IMG/VR virus record: IMGVR_UViG_3300003937_000134
Location: 1-20,454 of that record
DNA from: a virus
Reading direction: 5' to 3' (one strand)
Length of the DNA: 20,454 nucleotides
Shown: piece after piece, positions 8,540 through 18,990 of the stretch
Layout of the letters: each line of letters starts with the position of its first letter
How positions within the stretch are numbered: position 1 is the first letter of the stretch
Position numbers and translations under genes: made by a program
The notes under the pieces: generated by a model
The model's input: only the letters and a program-made list of their open reading frames with translations
Told to the model about the DNA's origin: nothing
Databases searched by the model: none

Positions 8540-9994
8540 TTAAGATGCTGTACAAGTGATGTCTAATGAAGTATCAAATCTCTTAAGAGCGATACCTGCA
8601 GTTTTCAACATATGTACAGACGCCCCGTCCACATCAGAAGCTCTAGCGGAAGTTGAATCAAATCCTCTAGGGACTACAGATCCAGCTACACACCATCTCA
8701 TTGCTTCACGACCTTTCTTAGAAATCATCTGAAGGTTATTTTGACCATCATAATTTGATTGATCAACAAATACCATTCTGTAAGATTCTAAAGAGTATCC
8801 TGTAATAGGGTGTTTTGCACGAGCTTGCGCCACGGCACCATGATCAAATAATGGTAATTTTACCACATTGATTGTGTGTCCATCTACATGCTCATAGGAT
8901 GTGAAGTATCCAGTTAATCCTAGGTTACGTCCTGAACCTGTGATAAATCTGTTTTCTCCACCTACTTTCCAAGATCCAGAAGATCCTGAGAAATGATTTT
9001 TAAGAGCTTCATCAAATTCTCTTGCACCACCAGTACCAGTATATAAAGTTACTTGTTTAGTTGCTGCATCAGTCATTCCGTAGAATAAATCTCCGATGAT
9101 GTTCTTAAGTTTAGCTTCAGTCATTACAGAGTAAGTGTCAGTATTAACAATTTGCTCTAAAAGACCAGGACCAACGATTACAGGCTGTCCATTCTCATCT
9201 TTCATGTGAGTATGTCCGTTTGAATCGTAAGTTTTTTGACCATACCAATAATACATTTCACACTCTTCTTTAAAGTCAAGCATGTGTAAGTACTCCTCAT
9301 AGTCCATCCAAAGTTTAGTAGTAGATCCACCTTTAGTTGGTAGAGCAAATTCTGCTACAAAATCTTTAGCGTTTCCAGACATGTGGTAAGATTTTCTAAC
9401 TGTAGTTAGTTTGTTTCTTACTAATCCTGGAGTTTCCCAATTAGATGCATTACCTCTAGAGAAATCAACTCCTACAGGTGCATACATTTGAGCCCAAAGC
9501 GCTCCTGCAGTAACATCTGCTGCTGCAACTGTTGCTGATGGTGCTGGGTTTACTAATTGTAAAGTGTATTTCCATTGAGATCCTCCAGCTACTTGCTGTG
9601 GCTCTTTCATAATACGTGCTTGAGTACCTGCTTGAGATACTAATACGTATGGGAATACAAAATGCTTGTCTGGGAAAGTAAGCTCGAAGCTTGCTCCTCC
9701 TAAACCAACATTTGATGTGCTAGTCATTGTTGCTGCTACTGGTCTCGTTCTCAATCTATGTGTTGCCACACGATATTCATACTCCAAGCGATCAATAGAC
9801 TTTGTGTTTCCAACACCTTCTGTTAAGAAAGATAGTGGAAATCTTTTGTCATCTTTACCTGCTAAATGAGTAATAATTGGAGACAGTTCAGTAGGTTTAG
9901 ATAACAATGCATTAGCAAGACTGTTCATATCAGTCATTTGCGAATCATTGTAAAACGTCTTTTGAACGCTTATATTTGTTCCATTTACTGCCAT
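8540..9994 (-). CDS. Major capsid protein
   Basis: The 484-residue protein has the size and style of HK97-fold major capsid proteins of crAss-like and Cellulophaga-type phages. There is an N-terminal arm with a PLSFLTEG motif (53-60). The following segments are rich in Gly, Ala and aromatic residues (SFELTFPDKHFVFPYVLVSQAG), and a Gly/Ser-rich loop carries WKVGGENRFITGSGRNLG. The C-terminal part includes TGYSLESYRMVFVDQSNYD. No protease motif or cleavage site can be assigned. It directly follows the scaffold-like gene and is followed by the strong hairpin at 8462-8507, typical of a highly expressed capsid gene. Its codons look visibly less A+T-biased than neighbouring genes, fitting high expression. 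Assignment rests on motif style and synteny. Confidence 0.85.
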   Translation of the reverse strand: MAVNGTNISVQKTFYNDSQMTDMNSLANALLSKPTELSPIITHLAGKDDKRFPLSFLTEGVGNTKSIDRLEYEYRVATHRLRTRPVAATMTSTSNVGLGGASFELTFPDKHFVFPYVLVSQAGTQARIMKEPQQVAGGSQWKYTLQLVNPAPSATVAAADVTAGALWAQMYAPVGVDFSRGNASNWETPGLVRNKLTTVRKSYHMSGNAKDFVAEFALPTKGGSTTKLWMDYEEYLHMLDFKEECEMYYWYGQKTYDSNGHTHMKDENGQPVIVGPGLLEQIVNTDTYSVMTEAKLKNIIGDLFYGMTDAATKQVTLYTGTGGAREFDEALKNHFSGSSGSWKVGGENRFITGSGRNLGLTGYFTSYEHVDGHTINVVKLPLFDHGAVAQARAKHPITGYSLESYRMVFVDQSNYDGQNNLQMISKKGREAMRWCVAGSVVPRGFDSTSARASDVDGASVHMLKTAGIALKRFDTSLDITCTAS

Positions 9995-11127: not shown

Positions 11128-11140
11128 ATATATATTGTTT

Positions 11141-11155
11141 TAATTTACAAATTTA
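11141..11155 (-). promoter_or_regulatory. 15-nt leader element with a TAnnTTTG box upstream of the scaffold-like gene
   Basis: The minus-strand sequence TAAATTTGTAAATTA contains TAAATTTG, an exact match to the Bacteroidota -7 consensus TAnnTTTG. The identical 15-mer occurs at the portal start (15634-15648). No TTTG/TTG is visible at the expected -33 distance, so it could be a weak promoter or a shared translation leader. Confidence 0.35.
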
Positions 11156-11217: not shown

Positions 11218-13371
11218 TTACCAGCATCCATACTTACATTTCTTTTTAAATCCTCCATATTCAAAAGGTACACATTTGTCTTTTCCATTCTCTGTTCCTG
11301 CATATCTATAACCATCCCAACAAGCTTTACCGTCTGCTCCTTTCTTTTTACCTCCTGTTTTAAAAGCTTCACGATAAGATTCTATATATTGGCTTGGTGT
11401 TTTATTTTTTCCTGGTAATTTAAATTCTGTACCATGTCTAAGAGATCTAAAATAATCTATAGCTCCTTGCCTACCTGTTAGATTACTCATAGCTGCAATC
11501 TCATTAAAAGTAAGATCTTTATTTACATCTGAATATTTCTTTGATAAATATTCTGCATTATCTTTTAATCCTGGAATGCCTTGTAATTCTCCTCTCCACC
11601 TCATATCAAGAATTGTATTTTGTAAAGTTGTATCTGCTGCAAACTCTTTTCTACTTATATTTTTTAATAAAGGAATATCTTTTATTTCATTATATAATTG
11701 ACCATACAATCCTGTAGCAGAACTTGATGAATTCATCATGTTAACTCCATCACTACTCTCTACTCTTCTTAAACCTTTTTTAACTTCCCAAGGAGCTCCT
11801 TCTTCATTGTCTATCATATTTGGAAAATCTTGAAAACCTCCTAATTTTTTTTCTGATGCTGCTCCTGCACCTACAGCAACTGGCACTGCAGCCCATGCTT
11901 TTCCTATAACATCTTTCATTTGTTTTGGAGTAGCGTCTGCCAGTCTAATAAGCATTTCTACATCATGAGGAACTTCTGATTTTGATACAGATTTAATAAG
12001 TCTACGTATCATACCATCTGTTAAATTATTTGGGTTTCCATCCCACTTTGCATTTTGTTTTAACCACTCTCCAGTTCTTACAAGTCTTACTTGTTGTTCT
12101 GCAGGATTTCTCATATAGTTACCAGTTATTTCTTTTTTTATTTTAAGAGTAGGATAGTTTTTATAAGCTTCTTTAGAAACAAATTTATCATACTGATTAG
12201 GTATTGGAGCATCTGGATTAGCAACTTTCATTTTTCCTGCAGGACTTCCAGCATGTCCAATCTCATGTTTTATTACATCCATTGTTTCGTCACTTAGATT
12301 TGTTCCGTAACCTCTTTTTACATACATTCTTCCAACCTCTCCAGATGGGGCTCCATAGTATTGTCCAAAAGCGCCTTTCATTCGCATCTTTGATATTTCA
12401 TTATCAAAAAACTCCAGATTTATAGGAGCTTCATTTACCTCTTTTATATAGGTATCAACATCTGCTTTAACTGTTGGCAAACTTTCTCCTGTATTAGCCA
12501 TTCTTTTAGATGCATACTCATCACTTTGTAAATATTTTATCTGGTTTAGTTTTGCTTTAGAAACTTTTATTTTATCACCTTTACTTAATTTATTAGGATT
12601 AAAAGGCCCAGCTGCCATTTCTTCAAAAGAAGTATTATTTATTAAAGACCTATCGTCGTACTTAGGAAATTTTGCCTTTGATAAATCTGTAGAAAGTGGA
12701 TTTTTTTTAAATAAATTTTTTAATTTACCATATCCTTTTGCAACAGGTCCTAATAAAACATCATCTATAAGTCCTGGTATTTTTGCTCCTGATGCTGATA
12801 CTTTCATACTATTTAAGAAAGGAACAGGTGCAGCAAAACCTAAAATAGTTTCACCATAATCTTGAGACTTTTCTTTAGCCTCACCACTAGCATACATTTG
12901 ATTAGATGCTCCTGAGATCCATTGTTTATTAGGATTATTACCTGTAAATTTATCATAGTAATTACTAATAGTGCCTCCTGAAGTATTACTATTTGCCACC
13001 ATTTGTTGAATTTGTTCCAACTTAGTTAAAGGTGTTTCTATTGTTGGGATATTAAAATTTTGAGATACATATGTAGAAGAAGGTTCTGCTGTATGTAATC
13101 CTCCATGAGATTTTTTTACTCCTCCTTCTTTAGCTAGTTGAGTAGGTAAAGATGCAGTGCTATCTACTAAATTAGATGGTAAAGCTGATGTAGTTTCTAA
13201 GTCTACATCTACAGGTTGAGGTGATTGTGGAATGTTAATAGGTTCCTGCGTAGGTGCAGGATTTTGCATAGGTTCAGTAGAAAGCTGACCTCTAAGTGCT
13301 GCAATTATATCTCCAGAGTCAGAAGCTTTTACTTGTTCTAGTATTGCTCTTCTATCTTGGTTTGTTAGCAT
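11218..13371 (-). CDS. Large virion protein with HEIGH metallopeptidase-like motif and lysozyme-like segment
   Basis: The 717-residue protein has several parts. Residues 1-170 are disordered and Pro/Ser/Thr/Gln-rich. A short Gly/Ala/Val hydrophobic stretch (about 176-215) follows. Near 360-375 lies MDVIKHEIGHAG, a clear HExxH zinc-peptidase motif (H369, E370, H373), with NPAEQQVR (about 422-429) as a possible source of a third ligand. Near 534-562 RRVESSDG...SSSATGLYGQLYNEI resembles the catalytic Glu motif of goose-type lysozyme or lytic transglycosylase, with E538 as the candidate. A later helix reads FNEIAAMSNLTGRQGAIDYF. A Cys/Gly/Lys-rich tail ends in CKYGCW. The start overlaps the portal 3' end by 20 bases. 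It is probably a virion-associated entry or maturation enzyme. The motifs are visible; the activities are inferred. Confidence 0.8.
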   Translation of the reverse strand: MLTNQDRRAILEQVKASDSGDIIAALRGQLSTEPMQNPAPTQEPINIPQSPQPVDVDLETTSALPSNLVDSTASLPTQLAKEGGVKKSHGGLHTAEPSSTYVSQNFNIPTIETPLTKLEQIQQMVANSNTSGGTISNYYDKFTGNNPNKQWISGASNQMYASGEAKEKSQDYGETILGFAAPVPFLNSMKVSASGAKIPGLIDDVLLGPVAKGYGKLKNLFKKNPLSTDLSKAKFPKYDDRSLINNTSFEEMAAGPFNPNKLSKGDKIKVSKAKLNQIKYLQSDEYASKRMANTGESLPTVKADVDTYIKEVNEAPINLEFFDNEISKMRMKGAFGQYYGAPSGEVGRMYVKRGYGTNLSDETMDVIKHEIGHAGSPAGKMKVANPDAPIPNQYDKFVSKEAYKNYPTLKIKKEITGNYMRNPAEQQVRLVRTGEWLKQNAKWDGNPNNLTDGMIRRLIKSVSKSEVPHDVEMLIRLADATPKQMKDVIGKAWAAVPVAVGAGAASEKKLGGFQDFPNMIDNEEGAPWEVKKGLRRVESSDGVNMMNSSSSATGLYGQLYNEIKDIPLLKNISRKEFAADTTLQNTILDMRWRGELQGIPGLKDNAEYLSKKYSDVNKDLTFNEIAAMSNLTGRQGAIDYFRSLRHGTEFKLPGKNKTPSQYIESYREAFKTGGKKKGADGKACWDGYRYAGTENGKDKCVPFEYGGFKKKCKYGCW

Positions 13372-15634
13372 TCTGTTTTGCTATTTCTTTTTTACTTTGT
13401 ATGTCTTCTCTTTTAATTGCATTAGAATCAAGCTCTCCTTGCATTTTTAACTGTAGTTCTTGCTCTTTTAATTCTAATTCTCTTTTTCTAAGCTCAAAAT
13501 CTTGTACCATTTTTTCTAAGTTAAGAGAATTAACATCTGTTTGATCTTTAGACTCTGCGCCTATTAAGGCTATCTCAATATCTTTTTGTCTATCTTTTTC
13601 TCTCTCAATATTTTCAGCTTCTAATTGCATTTGTTGAGCTTCTAGCTGTTGTTGTTGCATTTGTTGCTGTGCTTCTTGTTGAGCTTGTTCTAATTCAGCA
13701 TTTGCTTTATCTGCAATTTTAAGATTCTTTTTAATTTGTGTAAAGCTATCAGAATCTAACATCTCGGCTATGTCTCCTGGCTTAGCACCATTTTGCATCA
13801 TAGCTTGTGTTAATCCTTTAATGTTTTGTAGTTTTTCTTGATCTTTACCAGCATCAGAAACAAATATACCATAATTAGACTCCATATGCTCTAAACTATT
13901 TATATCTAAAAAATCAGTTGTTCCATCAGGTAATACAAACATTCCTCTCTTACCTGTTAACCATGCTTCTTTAGAATAATCTAATAATGCTTGAAAATCT
14001 CTTTGTTCCATTCTTTCAAACTTTCTAAATAGATCTTCTGTAATATGTGATGATTGTAATATAGCTTGTTGTGAAGATGCTTTACCTTCATACGCTCCAA
14101 TCTCACCTTGTCTTTGTCTACTTACTCCAGATATTTTTTCCCACTCTACTAAAATAGAATCTAGTAAAGTAATGTATTGACTTATAGTTTTTATAGACAT
14201 ATCCATAACAGATTGATGTTGTGGATTTAGTTGTATACCTTCTTTGTTATAATCTACCCAAGCAATACCTGTACCTTCTACATAGTACATAAATTTGTCC
14301 ATATCCCATTTTTTAGGGATCATGTTAATATCAAACTGTGCAATTATATCTTTACTCCTTGCTATTGCAAGTTCTAATCTGTATTTGTAAATATTATAAT
14401 TTAACTGATAAGGTATACCAAGTTTAACTAAAGATATATTTTTAGAATTTGTATCAGAGTATCTTCTACCGTTAATAGGCAGTTTACATTTAGAAGGATT
14501 TTCTAAAGACATTCTTTGATTAAGAATTGGGTTTATATTTACATAAAATCTACCATCTATTCTTGTACCTTCCCATACTTCATTAACCCACTTAAATTCT
14601 AAATTACCTCCTAATTCTTTTAGCTCTGCAGGCATTTTAAAACCATCTTCAACTTCTATTTCTTCAACGTCACCTGTTGCTGGATCTATATAACTTAAAA
14701 ATCCTATTCTTTTTCTAGATTTCCAATATACATTTACAACTTCTACTAATCTATTCCTAAATGCATTTGTATCTTTATTTGCTGAGTTAGCATACAAAAA
14801 AGAAATGTCACTTTCAGAATGTCTTGGTTCTTCTAGTTCTAAAATTTGTTGTTCTGTTAAACTTTCATAATAAGCATCAATAACTGTAGATGCATGTACA
14901 TATTTTCTAACTAATGCCCAATCTCCGTCTTCTACAAATTCTAAATCTGGGTCAAGGTCATAATCTACATCTAAAGGATTTAATATTTCATAAAAAGGCT
15001 CACTGTTTCTTACACCTCTGTGTGTGTATGCTTCTCCAGTAACTAAATAATGAAACCAAGCTTTTTGCACTTTATCATATACCTCTTGTTCTTGAAATAT
15101 ATAATTCATAGCTTGTTGCCCTAAAACTGCTCTAGAATCTATATAATTTACTTCAAACATTTCAGCAATATGTTGAGGAGTTGGTATTTCATCCATATTT
15201 GCCCCTATGTCTACACCTTGTGCTTGTACTTCTTGTAAAAACTTTTGTCTTAAATTTTGAGCTATTGCCTCAGACTTTTGTTGCTCTTTCATAGTAATAG
15301 CATCTGAGTTTTGAACTGTAACAGTATAATTGAGAGGTCTTTTAGATTTTTCCCCTAGAAGAAGATCAATTATGGGTTTGATAATGGGGTAATTACGCAT
15401 TTCAGAAGGAAAGTTCTTACGGGATTTTCCGTAAGGTTTTAGTACGTAATTATAATCAGCCTCGTCAATTACACCGTTATAGTAATCATATAATATTTTT
15501 AAATCGTCCTTTTGCTTAGAGTGACTAGAGCCAGAACTAGAGAGATCTATAAATGCTTCTACACATTCTTCTCCCCACTTTTTATTTTTTTTAGTAATCG
15601 AAAGCTTTTGCCTCGGTATTTTATCGTATCCCAT
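13352..15634 (-). CDS. Portal protein
   Basis: The 760-residue product matches the large portal proteins of crAss-like and related phages in size and motif style. There is an N-terminal helical region and the motif NYPIIKPIIDLLLGE (81-95). A long alpha/beta body follows, with NEVWEGTRIDGRFYVNINP and a stem-like region containing EKISGVSRQRQGEIGAYEGK. The C-terminal 120 or so residues form a Gln/Glu/Lys coiled-coil (EAQQQMQQQQLEAQQMQLEA), as expected for the barrel and crown of large portals. It forms the dodecameric vertex through which the terminase pumps DNA. It sits downstream of the terminase and SET genes, and its end overlaps the next gene by 20 bases. The leader carries a TAAATTTG box. 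Confidence 0.85.
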   Translation of the reverse strand: MGYDKIPRQKLSITKKNKKWGEECVEAFIDLSSSGSSHSKQKDDLKILYDYYNGVIDEADYNYVLKPYGKSRKNFPSEMRNYPIIKPIIDLLLGEKSKRPLNYTVTVQNSDAITMKEQQKSEAIAQNLRQKFLQEVQAQGVDIGANMDEIPTPQHIAEMFEVNYIDSRAVLGQQAMNYIFQEQEVYDKVQKAWFHYLVTGEAYTHRGVRNSEPFYEILNPLDVDYDLDPDLEFVEDGDWALVRKYVHASTVIDAYYESLTEQQILELEEPRHSESDISFLYANSANKDTNAFRNRLVEVVNVYWKSRKRIGFLSYIDPATGDVEEIEVEDGFKMPAELKELGGNLEFKWVNEVWEGTRIDGRFYVNINPILNQRMSLENPSKCKLPINGRRYSDTNSKNISLVKLGIPYQLNYNIYKYRLELAIARSKDIIAQFDINMIPKKWDMDKFMYYVEGTGIAWVDYNKEGIQLNPQHQSVMDMSIKTISQYITLLDSILVEWEKISGVSRQRQGEIGAYEGKASSQQAILQSSHITEDLFRKFERMEQRDFQALLDYSKEAWLTGKRGMFVLPDGTTDFLDINSLEHMESNYGIFVSDAGKDQEKLQNIKGLTQAMMQNGAKPGDIAEMLDSDSFTQIKKNLKIADKANAELEQAQQEAQQQMQQQQLEAQQMQLEAENIEREKDRQKDIEIALIGAESKDQTDVNSLNLEKMVQDFELRKRELELKEQELQLKMQGELDSNAIKREDIQSKKEIAKQNANKPR

Positions 15635-15648
15635 AATTTACAAATTTA
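15634..15648 (-). promoter_or_regulatory. 15-nt leader element with a TAnnTTTG box at the portal start
   Basis: This is the identical 15-mer TAAATTTGTAAATTA found before the scaffold-like gene; its last base is the A of the portal ATG. The TAAATTTG box lies only 7 nt upstream of the start codon. As a promoter it would give a leaderless or very short-leader mRNA. No good -33 box is seen, so a translational role is equally possible. Confidence 0.35.
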
Positions 15649-15673
15649 ATAATTTTTAACCCTTGTTTTTACC

Positions 15674-15701
15674 ATAATACTAATTACCAGAGTAGTATTA
15701 T
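15674..15701 (-). promoter_or_regulatory. 9-bp perfect hairpin between the SET-domain and portal genes
   Basis: ATAATACTA and TAGTATTAT pair perfectly over 9 bp around a 10-nt loop in the 77-base gap between these genes. It is A+T-rich and not followed by a T-run, so it is not an intrinsic terminator. It could be an RNA processing site or a protein-binding palindrome. Confidence 0.4.
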
Positions 15702-15711
15702 AAATATACCA

Positions 15712-16047
15712 CTACAAATAATTACATATATCGTATAAACTATATTTTAGCGTCAGCTCTTCTCCTGCCTCTACTTTACGTAATGTTTTTATTATTTTAT
15801 AATGATAATCTTCGTCTTTATCTAGTAATTCACAGTTAGCATCCTCATTGTGGTTAAGAAATCCACCTAATGGGGTCCTAATGTAATTGTGTTGAAAATT
15901 TGGATCATAAATGTGTGTAATACCTATAACAACCTCTCCCGGAATATCTTCTTTTGCTAGGATCCCTGCTCCATGTATATTTGATGGTCCAATCGCCAAG
16001 TATTCTGGTAGAGGGTTATAAGGTTCACAATCTTTTTTCTTATTCAT
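15712..16047 (-). CDS. SET-domain protein, putative protein-lysine methyltransferase
   Basis: The 111-residue protein is a nearly bare SET domain. It shows the opening motif IHGAGILA (24-31), the central GGFLNHNEDANC (61-72, matching the NHs.xpN cofactor-binding motif) and the closing AGEELTLKYSLY (94-105), with Y102 in the position of the catalytic Tyr. Pre-SET and post-SET Cys clusters are absent. This family transfers methyl groups from S-adenosylmethionine to lysines in proteins; viral SET proteins of similar small size are known from algal viruses. It starts one base after the terminase stop and lies upstream of the portal, so it is embedded in the packaging cassette. Its substrate is unknown: a virion protein or a host DNA-associated protein is possible. 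Confidence 0.85.
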   Translation of the reverse strand: MNKKKDCEPYNPLPEYLAIGPSNIHGAGILAKEDIPGEVVIGITHIYDPNFQHNYIRTPLGGFLNHNEDANCELLDKDEDYHYKIIKTLRKVEAGEELTLKYSLYDICNYL

Positions 16048-16048
16048 A

Positions 16049-18013
16049 TTAATAATAGTTTTGTTCGAACCACTTATCTGTAGCTCTGTCTTCTAATATA
16101 TCTTTAACTTCAGCATTATAGAGTTCCCTTGTGTGATACATCCCAATCATTAATGACATTACACGGTCAAAGTTACCACTATGATTAAACTTAATTAATT
16201 CTGTTAGCAAAGCCGGATCATAGATTTTATGTAAATTTAATAATTTTTTTCCCGTATCATCAGTACTCCTAACTGTATTTAGCCAGTCTCTTATATATAT
16301 CTCACCTTGACGCTTCCTTGCTTCTGTCATATGCATCCCATATTGACGTTTTACGTTCTTACTCCTTAATTCTTTTTTGTCTAACATCTCAAACTCTTCT
16401 TGTAGTTTATGCATCTTTCTAAATCGTTTTGCATAAGCTATTACTTCTCCCCTATCATTCTCAAAGCCAATTTTACAACCATAATAGTCTGCTAACATAA
16501 ACAAATTTCTGTTATAATCATCTTGCGTGTGTGGTCTCCCTACATATGACGCTACAATTATATCATCTGGTTGAGATACATTATTAGGTCTTTTTAAAAC
16601 ATATGCTGATCCTAAAGACATAGAATCTGCAGATTGATTTTGACCATAAGGGTCATGGCAAATTACATATAGATTTAATGGTACTTGTTGCTCTTGATTT
16701 TTATATGGGGCTTCATATATTACAACTGCCCCTGTTTTATCATCATCTTTTCTATGTGGGTATTTAGTTATAGGTTTTAAATCCCCATCTATTTTAAATT
16801 TAACTTTTCCGTCTTTATCATGATAAAAATTACCTGCTGTACCTATTGCTTGTAAATTTCTAGCTTTTACATTATTATATTGTTCTTGTAATGACGCAAT
16901 ATCAAATAAATTAGCTGTTACTTGTAATGTTGCTTCTTGAGGTGAGAAGGGATGCTCAGCTATATATTGGTCTAAAGATTTTGCATCTGCAGCACCCTTT
17001 TTCTTCTCCCTCATTTGTTCTTCATATTCTATAGCATCTTGTTGCATAGAATTACCATTATCATCTATAAATCCATCTAAATTCTTTTGTATTGGGATAA
17101 AATACCCACATCTTGTACCCATTGCACCCTCATCCCATATGTTTTCATAATCCATACAATCATATGCTGCTGGATTATAAAATATTTCTTCCATAGCCTC
17201 AAAATCAGATCCTTCTGTACCACCTGTACCAAAAGCTACCATCATACCTAATGTTTTAGCACCTTGTCTCATTGTTGGCATTGTTACCTCCCATGCTTTT
17301 AACAATCCTGGAAATGATCCTGCTTCTTCAAAGAAAACTAGCTCACCTGCCTTACCCCTTACTTTATCTGGGTTATCTTTTAGTGATACCCCTATTATTT
17401 GAGACTTCATACCCATCTCTATCTCCATTCCGTTTACTTTCTTCTTATATCCAGACATTTTATGCATCTCTCTGTCTCTTAGTCTAGGTTGAGCCCATGC
17501 AGTATGGTCATCTATAAAAGATAAAAACTCCCAAGCTTTTGAGAGTAGTCCATCACCAATTAAAAATTCTTTAGAGGATGCAAATACAAAGTTTTTACTA
17601 TTCCTAACAAAGAAATAGTTTCTAGCAAGCATAGATCCTGCTTTGTAAGAGTATCCCTTACGTCTTGCTTTTAAAACTATCATATGTTTATTCTGTGCTC
17701 TAGCTTTATCTATTTCATGGAAGTATTCATAGTCTCCATCATAAAATCTAGGAAATGTACGCTCACGTCTAGCTTGTAATGTACCATCTGGCATTAATTC
17801 ATCTACAGCTCGATCAATAGGACAATAATTTAAGTAGAAATAGTGAAATCCAGTAATATGTAAGTCATCTACTTTATAACCATACATACATCGCTTGTGC
17901 TCTTCATCCCAAAACTCATAATACTCTCTTGTTCCAGGAAGAGCAGATGTATAGTGACCACTAGCTATAAATTTAAGGGCTCCCGGCCTGACTTTGTCTG
18001 TTTCTTTAAGCAT
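16049..18013 (-). CDS. terL: Terminase large subunit (DNA-packaging ATPase/nuclease)
   Basis: The 654-residue protein shows the terminase order of motifs. A Walker A-like segment KARRKGYSYK (115-124) is followed by Walker B ELVFFEEAG (224-232) and a coupling motif FGTGG (261-265). The linker motif EHPFSPQEA (353-361) precedes an RNase H-like nuclease with acidic motifs CHDPYG (452-457), FENDRGE (517-523) and NFDRVMSLMIG (615-625). It cuts concatemeric DNA and pumps it through the portal. The phosphate loop lacks the canonical GK[ST], having GYS instead. The start overlaps the upstream gene by 49 bases; no other Met occurs until residue 43, inside the conserved region, so the long start is preferred. 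Confidence 0.93.
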   Translation of the reverse strand: MLKETDKVRPGALKFIASGHYTSALPGTREYYEFWDEEHKRCMYGYKVDDLHITGFHYFYLNYCPIDRAVDELMPDGTLQARRERTFPRFYDGDYEYFHEIDKARAQNKHMIVLKARRKGYSYKAGSMLARNYFFVRNSKNFVFASSKEFLIGDGLLSKAWEFLSFIDDHTAWAQPRLRDREMHKMSGYKKKVNGMEIEMGMKSQIIGVSLKDNPDKVRGKAGELVFFEEAGSFPGLLKAWEVTMPTMRQGAKTLGMMVAFGTGGTEGSDFEAMEEIFYNPAAYDCMDYENIWDEGAMGTRCGYFIPIQKNLDGFIDDNGNSMQQDAIEYEEQMREKKKGAADAKSLDQYIAEHPFSPQEATLQVTANLFDIASLQEQYNNVKARNLQAIGTAGNFYHDKDGKVKFKIDGDLKPITKYPHRKDDDKTGAVVIYEAPYKNQEQQVPLNLYVICHDPYGQNQSADSMSLGSAYVLKRPNNVSQPDDIIVASYVGRPHTQDDYNRNLFMLADYYGCKIGFENDRGEVIAYAKRFRKMHKLQEEFEMLDKKELRSKNVKRQYGMHMTEARKRQGEIYIRDWLNTVRSTDDTGKKLLNLHKIYDPALLTELIKFNHSGNFDRVMSLMIGMYHTRELYNAEVKDILEDRATDKWFEQNYY

Positions 18014-18264: not shown

Positions 18265-18785
18265 TACATACTATATTTGTTTACTTCAATTCCTCCTCTA
18301 TTAGTATTAGCGGCTTGTTCTTCTTTTTTAACTATCTCTTCTAAGTTTCTAAGTCCATCTACTACTTTACCCATTTTTTCTAAGTTACTAATTAAATCTT
18401 TTGCGTGAAAAATAGGTCTACCATTGTCATCTGCTAAAGTTAAGTCTATATCTCTTAGATACTTTTCTAATTTTATAACAGATTCTCTTGCCGCTCTTAA
18501 TAATCTAACAGCTGAGGTTTCAATTAACTTATCATACTTTTTACAAGCTGCTAATACTTTTGCACTTGGTTTAAACTCTTTCTTTTCTCCAAATATACTA
18601 TTTTTTACTTCAATCAAACGTTGTTCCCAAGCGTATACAGAAAAAGGTGATTTATGATCTGTAGTAAAATAAACAAAAGCTAATTCTTTTTCACTTAAAT
18701 CTTTAAACTCAATTACAGTTAAAGCATACGCACTAGGCATAGCTTTATTATCTATTATGTGAATTAAATCATCCCTTAGACTCAT
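18264..18785 (-). CDS. Helical protein, candidate small terminase subunit
   Basis: The 173-residue product is mainly helical. The first half contains LSEKELAFVYFTTDHKSPF, then KYDKLIETSAVRLLRAARESVIKLEKYL, then a coiled-coil-like segment AKDLISNLEKMGKVVDGLRNLEEIVKKEE, ending in a flexible Asn/Gly-rich tail (NTNRGGIEVNKYSM). A helical oligomerisation core plus tail, about 250 bases upstream of the large terminase, fits a small terminase subunit that recognises viral DNA. No helix-turn-helix motif is convincing, so this rests on size, helicity and synteny. Its start overlaps the HU-like gene by 17 bases. Confidence 0.7.
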   Translation of the reverse strand: MSLRDDLIHIIDNKAMPSAYALTVIEFKDLSEKELAFVYFTTDHKSPFSVYAWEQRLIEVKNSIFGEKKEFKPSAKVLAACKKYDKLIETSAVRLLRAARESVIKLEKYLRDIDLTLADDNGRPIFHAKDLISNLEKMGKVVDGLRNLEEIVKKEEQAANTNRGGIEVNKYSM

Positions 18786-18990
18786 CTTTTAATTTATTTA
18801 TATATTCTACCCGTTTAGATTTTACAGAAAATTTACCAAAGTATGGTAATCGTATCATTTCAAATTTTCCTTGCTTCATTATCTTTTCTACAAACTTAAA
18901 CTGATGGTTTACTATTTCTTCTACCTTTTTTAGGGGTAAATTGTATTTAGTTGCTAGCGTTTGTATTATCGCCTTCTTGTCTTTCGCCAT
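18769..18990 (-). CDS. Short HU/IHF-like DNA-binding protein lacking the beta-arm
   Basis: The 73-residue product aligns by eye with the N-terminal half of HU/IHF proteins: helices with AIIQTLATKYNLPLKKVEEIVNHQFKFV and then IRLPYFGKFSVKSKR, matching the family signature (v/i)rlpgFGtF. Typical family members have about 90-100 residues; this one stops shortly after the signature. The beta-arm with the conserved Pro that inserts into the DNA minor groove is missing. It may dimerise or bind DNA differently, or act in packaging or genome condensation. IHF-like genes near packaging genes are known from crAss-like phages. It overlaps its neighbours by 44 and 17 bases. Confidence 0.75.
   Translation of the reverse strand: MAKDKKAIIQTLATKYNLPLKKVEEIVNHQFKFVEKIMKQGKFEMIRLPYFGKFSVKSKRVEYINKLKDESKG

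Follow-up and report, generated by a model that had tools for sequence, protein, structure and literature searches.

An optional and exchangeable SET-domain gene between the terminase and portal genes of marine crAss-like phages

The window, a virus record of 20,454 bases, carries its structural genes on the minus strand, as judged from open reading frame calls and profile matches. These encode the major capsid protein (MCP; positions 8540 to 9994; Crass_capsid, E value of 3.2e-82), the portal protein (13352 to 15634; phrog_6547, 4.7e-124) and the large subunit of the terminase (terL; 16049 to 18013; phrog_6681, 2.5e-136), and a gene for an HU-like DNA-binding protein is found on the same strand at 18769 to 18990 (Pfam, 2e-7). 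As a Crass capsid and the crAss portal and terL families were all matched, the window belongs to a crAss-like phage, and its relatives are largely of marine-sample origin. For the 717-amino-acid protein encoded after portal (11218 to 13371, minus strand), neither Pfam nor PHROG gave a notable match, and relatives show little conservation of it.

Between terL and portal, also on the minus strand, lies a gene for a 111-amino-acid protein (15712 to 16047) with its ATG at 16047 and its stop codon at 15712 to 15714. terL is directly upstream, its stop codon 1 nt from the start of this gene, and a conserved intergenic stretch of 77 nt (15635 to 15711, minus strand) leads to portal downstream; the same stretch persists between terL and portal in relatives lacking the gene. 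The plus strand across 15712 to 16047 is full of stops. As the gene recurs in the 80 closest viral loci at 73 to 100% identity, and in more than 590 loci in a wider scan, it is not a chance frame. The sequence-only reading was correct in placing a 111-residue reading frame here between terL and portal; the frame lies on the minus strand.

At 15632 to 15648 (minus strand), the sequence TAAATTTGTAAATTATG contains a TAnnTTTG box, the -7 element of Bacteroidota promoters, 14 nt before the portal start. All 77 relatives compared (52 of 52 with the 111-residue gene and 25 of 25 without it) have such a box no more than 25 nt from the start of portal, versus 1.5% of the 25-nt stretches in the window. 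Because this conserved promoter box stands between the two genes, the upstream gene is probably part of the terL transcript, with portal starting a separate one that may be nearly leaderless. The motif TAAATTTGTAAATTA of this stretch recurs at 11139 to 11155 (minus strand), ahead of the gene for a 361-amino-acid protein.

Using Pfam, the 111-residue protein was assigned to the SET domain (PF00856) with an E value of 8e-8 and a score of 33.1 bits against a cut-off of 22.4. A near end-to-end match to phrog_28741 (3.4e-22), a PHROG of unknown function, was also identified, and the present analysis adds a family, a genomic context and mobility to that entry. Searches of NCBIfam, and of PADLOC for defense-system families, returned no match to the protein. 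Three motifs could be located in it, all on the minus strand: the GxG S-adenosylmethionine (SAM)-binding motif at residues 26 to 28 (G26-A27-G28 of IHGAGILA; 15964 to 15972), the NH...N motif at residues 65 to 72 (NHNEDANC within FLNHNEDANC; 15832 to 15855) and the presumed catalytic tyrosine, Y102 of ELTLKY (15742 to 15744). Across 88 diverse SET sequences from phages and bacteria, G28, N65, H66, N71, E97 and Y102 were invariant, and G26 was retained in at least 90%. The core SET motifs that the sequence-only reading had listed, including the Tyr, are borne out by this alignment, and a loss of the NH and Tyr motifs in relatives, which it had raised as counterevidence, was not seen in any of the 88 sequences. 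SET domains typically end in a "DY" pair, with Asp preceding the catalytic Tyr; in the window protein this Asp is replaced by Lys.

A structure prediction, suggested earlier as a check, returned a SET fold. The AlphaFold2 model, for which the input alignment comprised 88 rows with annotated phage records left out, had a mean pLDDT of 86.8, with the last seven residues (105 to 111) poorly predicted. In a comparison with solved structures, the top 50 matches were all SET or PR domains (best Z score of 11.4), and the closest fold of equal size was vSET of the chlorella virus PBCV-1 (PDB 3kma; Z score of 11.3, rmsd of 2.5 over 90 residues), with Y102 opposite vSET residue 105, where the structural alignment ends. 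A profile of the family searched against the PDB matched the SET domain of KMT2D best (4z4p; 2.7e-10), and vSET (1n3j) was matched at 3.2e-8. The protein has a SET fold and has retained its catalytic residues.

The median dN/dS of the SET gene was 0.158, versus 0.082 for terL, indicating that the gene is under purifying selection. Given the NH and Tyr motifs invariant in 88 sequences and a dN/dS of about 0.16, the window protein is likely an active methyltransferase. Retention of the fold for binding instead of catalysis appears very improbable: the Lys in place of the textbook Asp, the lack of both pre-SET and post-SET regions and the poorly predicted residues 105 to 111 would be in keeping with it, but N65, H66, N71, E97 and Y102 do not vary, and selection has acted to preserve the gene.

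Conservation of the terL-SET-portal order among relatives had been proposed as a further check. The order was kept in all of the 80 closest viral loci wherever the contig extended far enough; these loci, however, were picked by SET itself. When loci were picked by terL instead, SET was present in 71 of 78 informative cases, and in the other seven terL led straight to portal across a gap of 80 to 90 nt. A pattern search for empty junctions identified 33 related contigs with terL-portal gaps of 80 to 94 nt, so SET is not found wherever terL and portal occur. No SET gene was detected anywhere in long records with an empty junction (80.3, 80.5, 63.6, 52.6 and 46.9 kb; possibly incomplete), and the identical search does find SET in records of similar size that carry it. 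On the terL tree, the distribution of SET requires at least eight changes by parsimony, three of which are forced by well-supported branches. The gut, Cellulophaga and Flavobacterium crAss-like genomes examined also have the junction without SET. SET is an optional gene at a fixed site between terL and portal, where it has been repeatedly gained or lost. In the gut crAss phage cr115_1, the same slot is occupied by an HNH endonuclease gene (L251, 6023 to 6583), which suggests that the junction is insertion prone.

In one relative, G009 (a record of 89.5 kb), the junction is empty and a member of the SET family lies approximately 26 kb away on the opposite strand, adjoining a dATP/dGTP diphosphohydrolase gene and near a 5'-3' exonuclease gene, among replication genes. 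This copy branches beside the terL-linked copies in the SET tree. Relocated copies were sought in the other phages with an empty junction and none was found in their records, which may be incomplete. G009 also carries a second, different SET-type gene, encoding 126 amino acids (L288, 4149 to 4529, minus strand), near DNA polymerase A.

SET was not coinherited with its neighbors. Spearman correlations of protein identities within contigs were 0.17 for SET and terL and -0.02 for SET and portal, versus 0.76 for terL and portal, 0.47 to 0.78 for length-matched 111-amino-acid pieces of terL against portal and 0.42 to 0.62 for the small neighbors HU, g99 and g173 against terL. Discordant pairs display the exchange directly: L003 and L034 share 94% identity in terL and 77% in SET, while L021 and L044 share 75% in terL and 91% in SET. 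SET alleles have been exchanged between phage lineages.

Homologs with 40 to 47% identity and the same motifs, annotated as hypothetical or not at all, were identified in the Prochlorococcus phages P-SSM7 and P-RSM6, Kyanoviridae virus AG-345-P14 and Pelagibacter phage Kolga. Unlike the window phage, these belong to other phage families and have other SET neighborhoods, which feature nrdB, the gp25 baseplate gene or a gene for an AAA protein; SET follows nrdB and one small gene in P-SSM7 and precedes gp25 in P-RSM6. The six phage records matching SET are cyanophages and pelagiphages, distinct from the crAss-like records found by terL. In the wider scan, the baseplate wedge gene (gp25) was directly downstream of SET in 29 of 41 nonredundant contigs, the remaining downstream neighbors including hli, 2OG-Fe(II) oxygenase and glycosyltransferase genes, and upstream neighbors included PAAR, endonuclease V and nrdB. 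Other phage lineages therefore carry SET at other sites.

From the location of the gene, the sequence-only reading had suggested that the substrate belongs to head assembly or packaging. SET would then methylate TerL, portal, capsid or the phage HU and so tune assembly or packaging, and the strict gene order in the 80 close relatives, the baseplate genes that adjoin most homologs in T4-like cyanophages and the nearby HU gene are all in keeping with this. The reading nevertheless appears doubtful and drew no support from the comparisons: the junction is empty in 33 contigs, including close relatives, and records of about 80 kb have no SET; the G009 copy sits among replication genes and others beside baseplate or metabolic genes; and the divergence of SET is uncoupled from that of terL and portal. 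Because SET is optional, mobile and not coinherited with its neighbors, a dedicated packaging role is unlikely. Among close relatives, no conserved lysine of terL, HU, g173, g99, g361 or g103 was lost together with SET (for MCP there were too few rows).

Individual candidate substrates were also rejected. In the full comparison, lysine differed at three positions of terL and two of portal, but among close relatives lacking SET it did so at no terL position and only at portal position 42, weakly (91% versus 47%); since the other differences are gone among these relatives, they are attributed to lineage. HU is not favored as a specific substrate, as crAss001 has HU and a junction without SET, and no HU lysine tracks SET.

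A related reading, also unlikely though somewhat less so, is that the virion carries the enzyme and delivers it at infection, so that it acts early on nucleoid or transcription proteins of the host. It draws on an analogy: the PBCV-1 virion packages vSET (PMC7019647), which methylates host histone H3K27 (PMC7019647, PMC3089700). Both main phage settings of SET, terL-portal and PAAR-gp25, are neighborhoods of structural genes, which fits late expression, is compatible with a virion role and was counted against the explanation that we prefer. Some SET copies, however, lie in metabolic or replication blocks, which argues against delivery with the virion.

Members of the SET family were also found on bacterial contigs from marine metagenome-assembled genomes (MAGs) and from single-cell genomes; a part of these contigs may belong to phages. 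Clearly chromosomal SET genes were identified in 14 of 299 Flavobacteriaceae genomes. The products of these marine flavobacterial genes share up to 49% identity with the window protein, as well as the sequence RTPLGGFINHS or RLPLGGFINHH, and lie on the same side of the tree; they differ in being cellular and in that most, besides that of MAG L170, have a longer C-terminal tail. In the SET tree, the crAss proteins form a single clade (support of 100) that groups with the flavobacterial proteins, apart from a T4-like clade, although the join of the crAss and flavobacterial proteins is weak (84% SH-aLRT, 112 columns). The chromosomal flavobacterial proteins are probably the cellular kin of the crAss SET. 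The simplest reading would be that marine crAss-like phages captured the gene once, from a Bacteroidota host, and that it was shuffled thereafter.

The explanation that we prefer, with a probability of roughly 0.6, is that SET encodes a host-derived accessory protein-lysine methyltransferase that would modify at least one protein of the infected host cell; the host-protein substrate is inferred by elimination. The gene would have entered marine crAss-like phages in a single event, its probable donor being a Bacteroidota host that has a related gene on its chromosome, and would be transcribed with terL, before the separate portal promoter. The product, a minimal SAM-dependent SET enzyme, would methylate lysines of one or more host proteins during infection, and this methylation may confer a conditional advantage.

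Apart from a handful of proteins in intracellular bacteria and a single one in an algal virus, the known SET enzymes are mainly modifiers of eukaryotic histones. The algal-virus protein, vSET (A612L of PBCV-1; PDB 1n3j and 3kma), resembles the window protein in being virus encoded and a stand-alone minimal SET domain of approximately 110 to 120 amino acids with neither pre-SET nor post-SET. However, the two share only 18% identity, vSET is a eukaryotic-virus enzyme acting on histone H3K27, and the window protein has ELTLKY in place of the usual "DY" ending and belongs to a family with the signature RTPLGGFINHS. To our knowledge, bacterial hosts have no histone H3K27 tail, and for this reason the window protein was not classed as a vSET-type histone methyltransferase. 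The KMT2 (MLL) SET domains, despite being the best PDB profile matches, are parts of large eukaryotic multidomain enzymes that act on histone H3K4 and have a post-SET region and partner proteins, unlike the window protein. The SET fold and its chemistry are already known. What appears to be new is a bacteriophage SET family, marked by the signatures RTPLGGFINHS and LKY, that extends across unrelated marine phages; in the literature covered by our searches, which yielded only background on vSET, no description of such a family was found.

With SET in hundreds of marine phage contigs, and in cultured cyanophages and a pelagiphage, methylation of host proteins by phages is directly testable. We tentatively propose, as a somewhat less than even prospect, that several unrelated marine phage lineages independently captured host SET-type protein-lysine methyltransferases and exchange them as genes for host takeover. 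If true, phage-directed lysine methylation of bacterial proteins would be a widespread means of controlling infection at sea that has yet to be described.

The chromosomal settings of the cellular genes differed between groups. In two flavobacterial MAGs (L170 and L176), SET lies among arginine-biosynthesis genes, and positions 2216 to 7209 of L170 form an argG-argC-SET-proC-argD operon (assigned by Pfam as argG, argC, proC-type and class-III aminotransferase). In Porticoccaceae (L185, L186, L189, L190 and L193), SET is conserved in position, flanked on one side by a fabA/ketoacyl-synthase pair and on the other by a redoxin gene.
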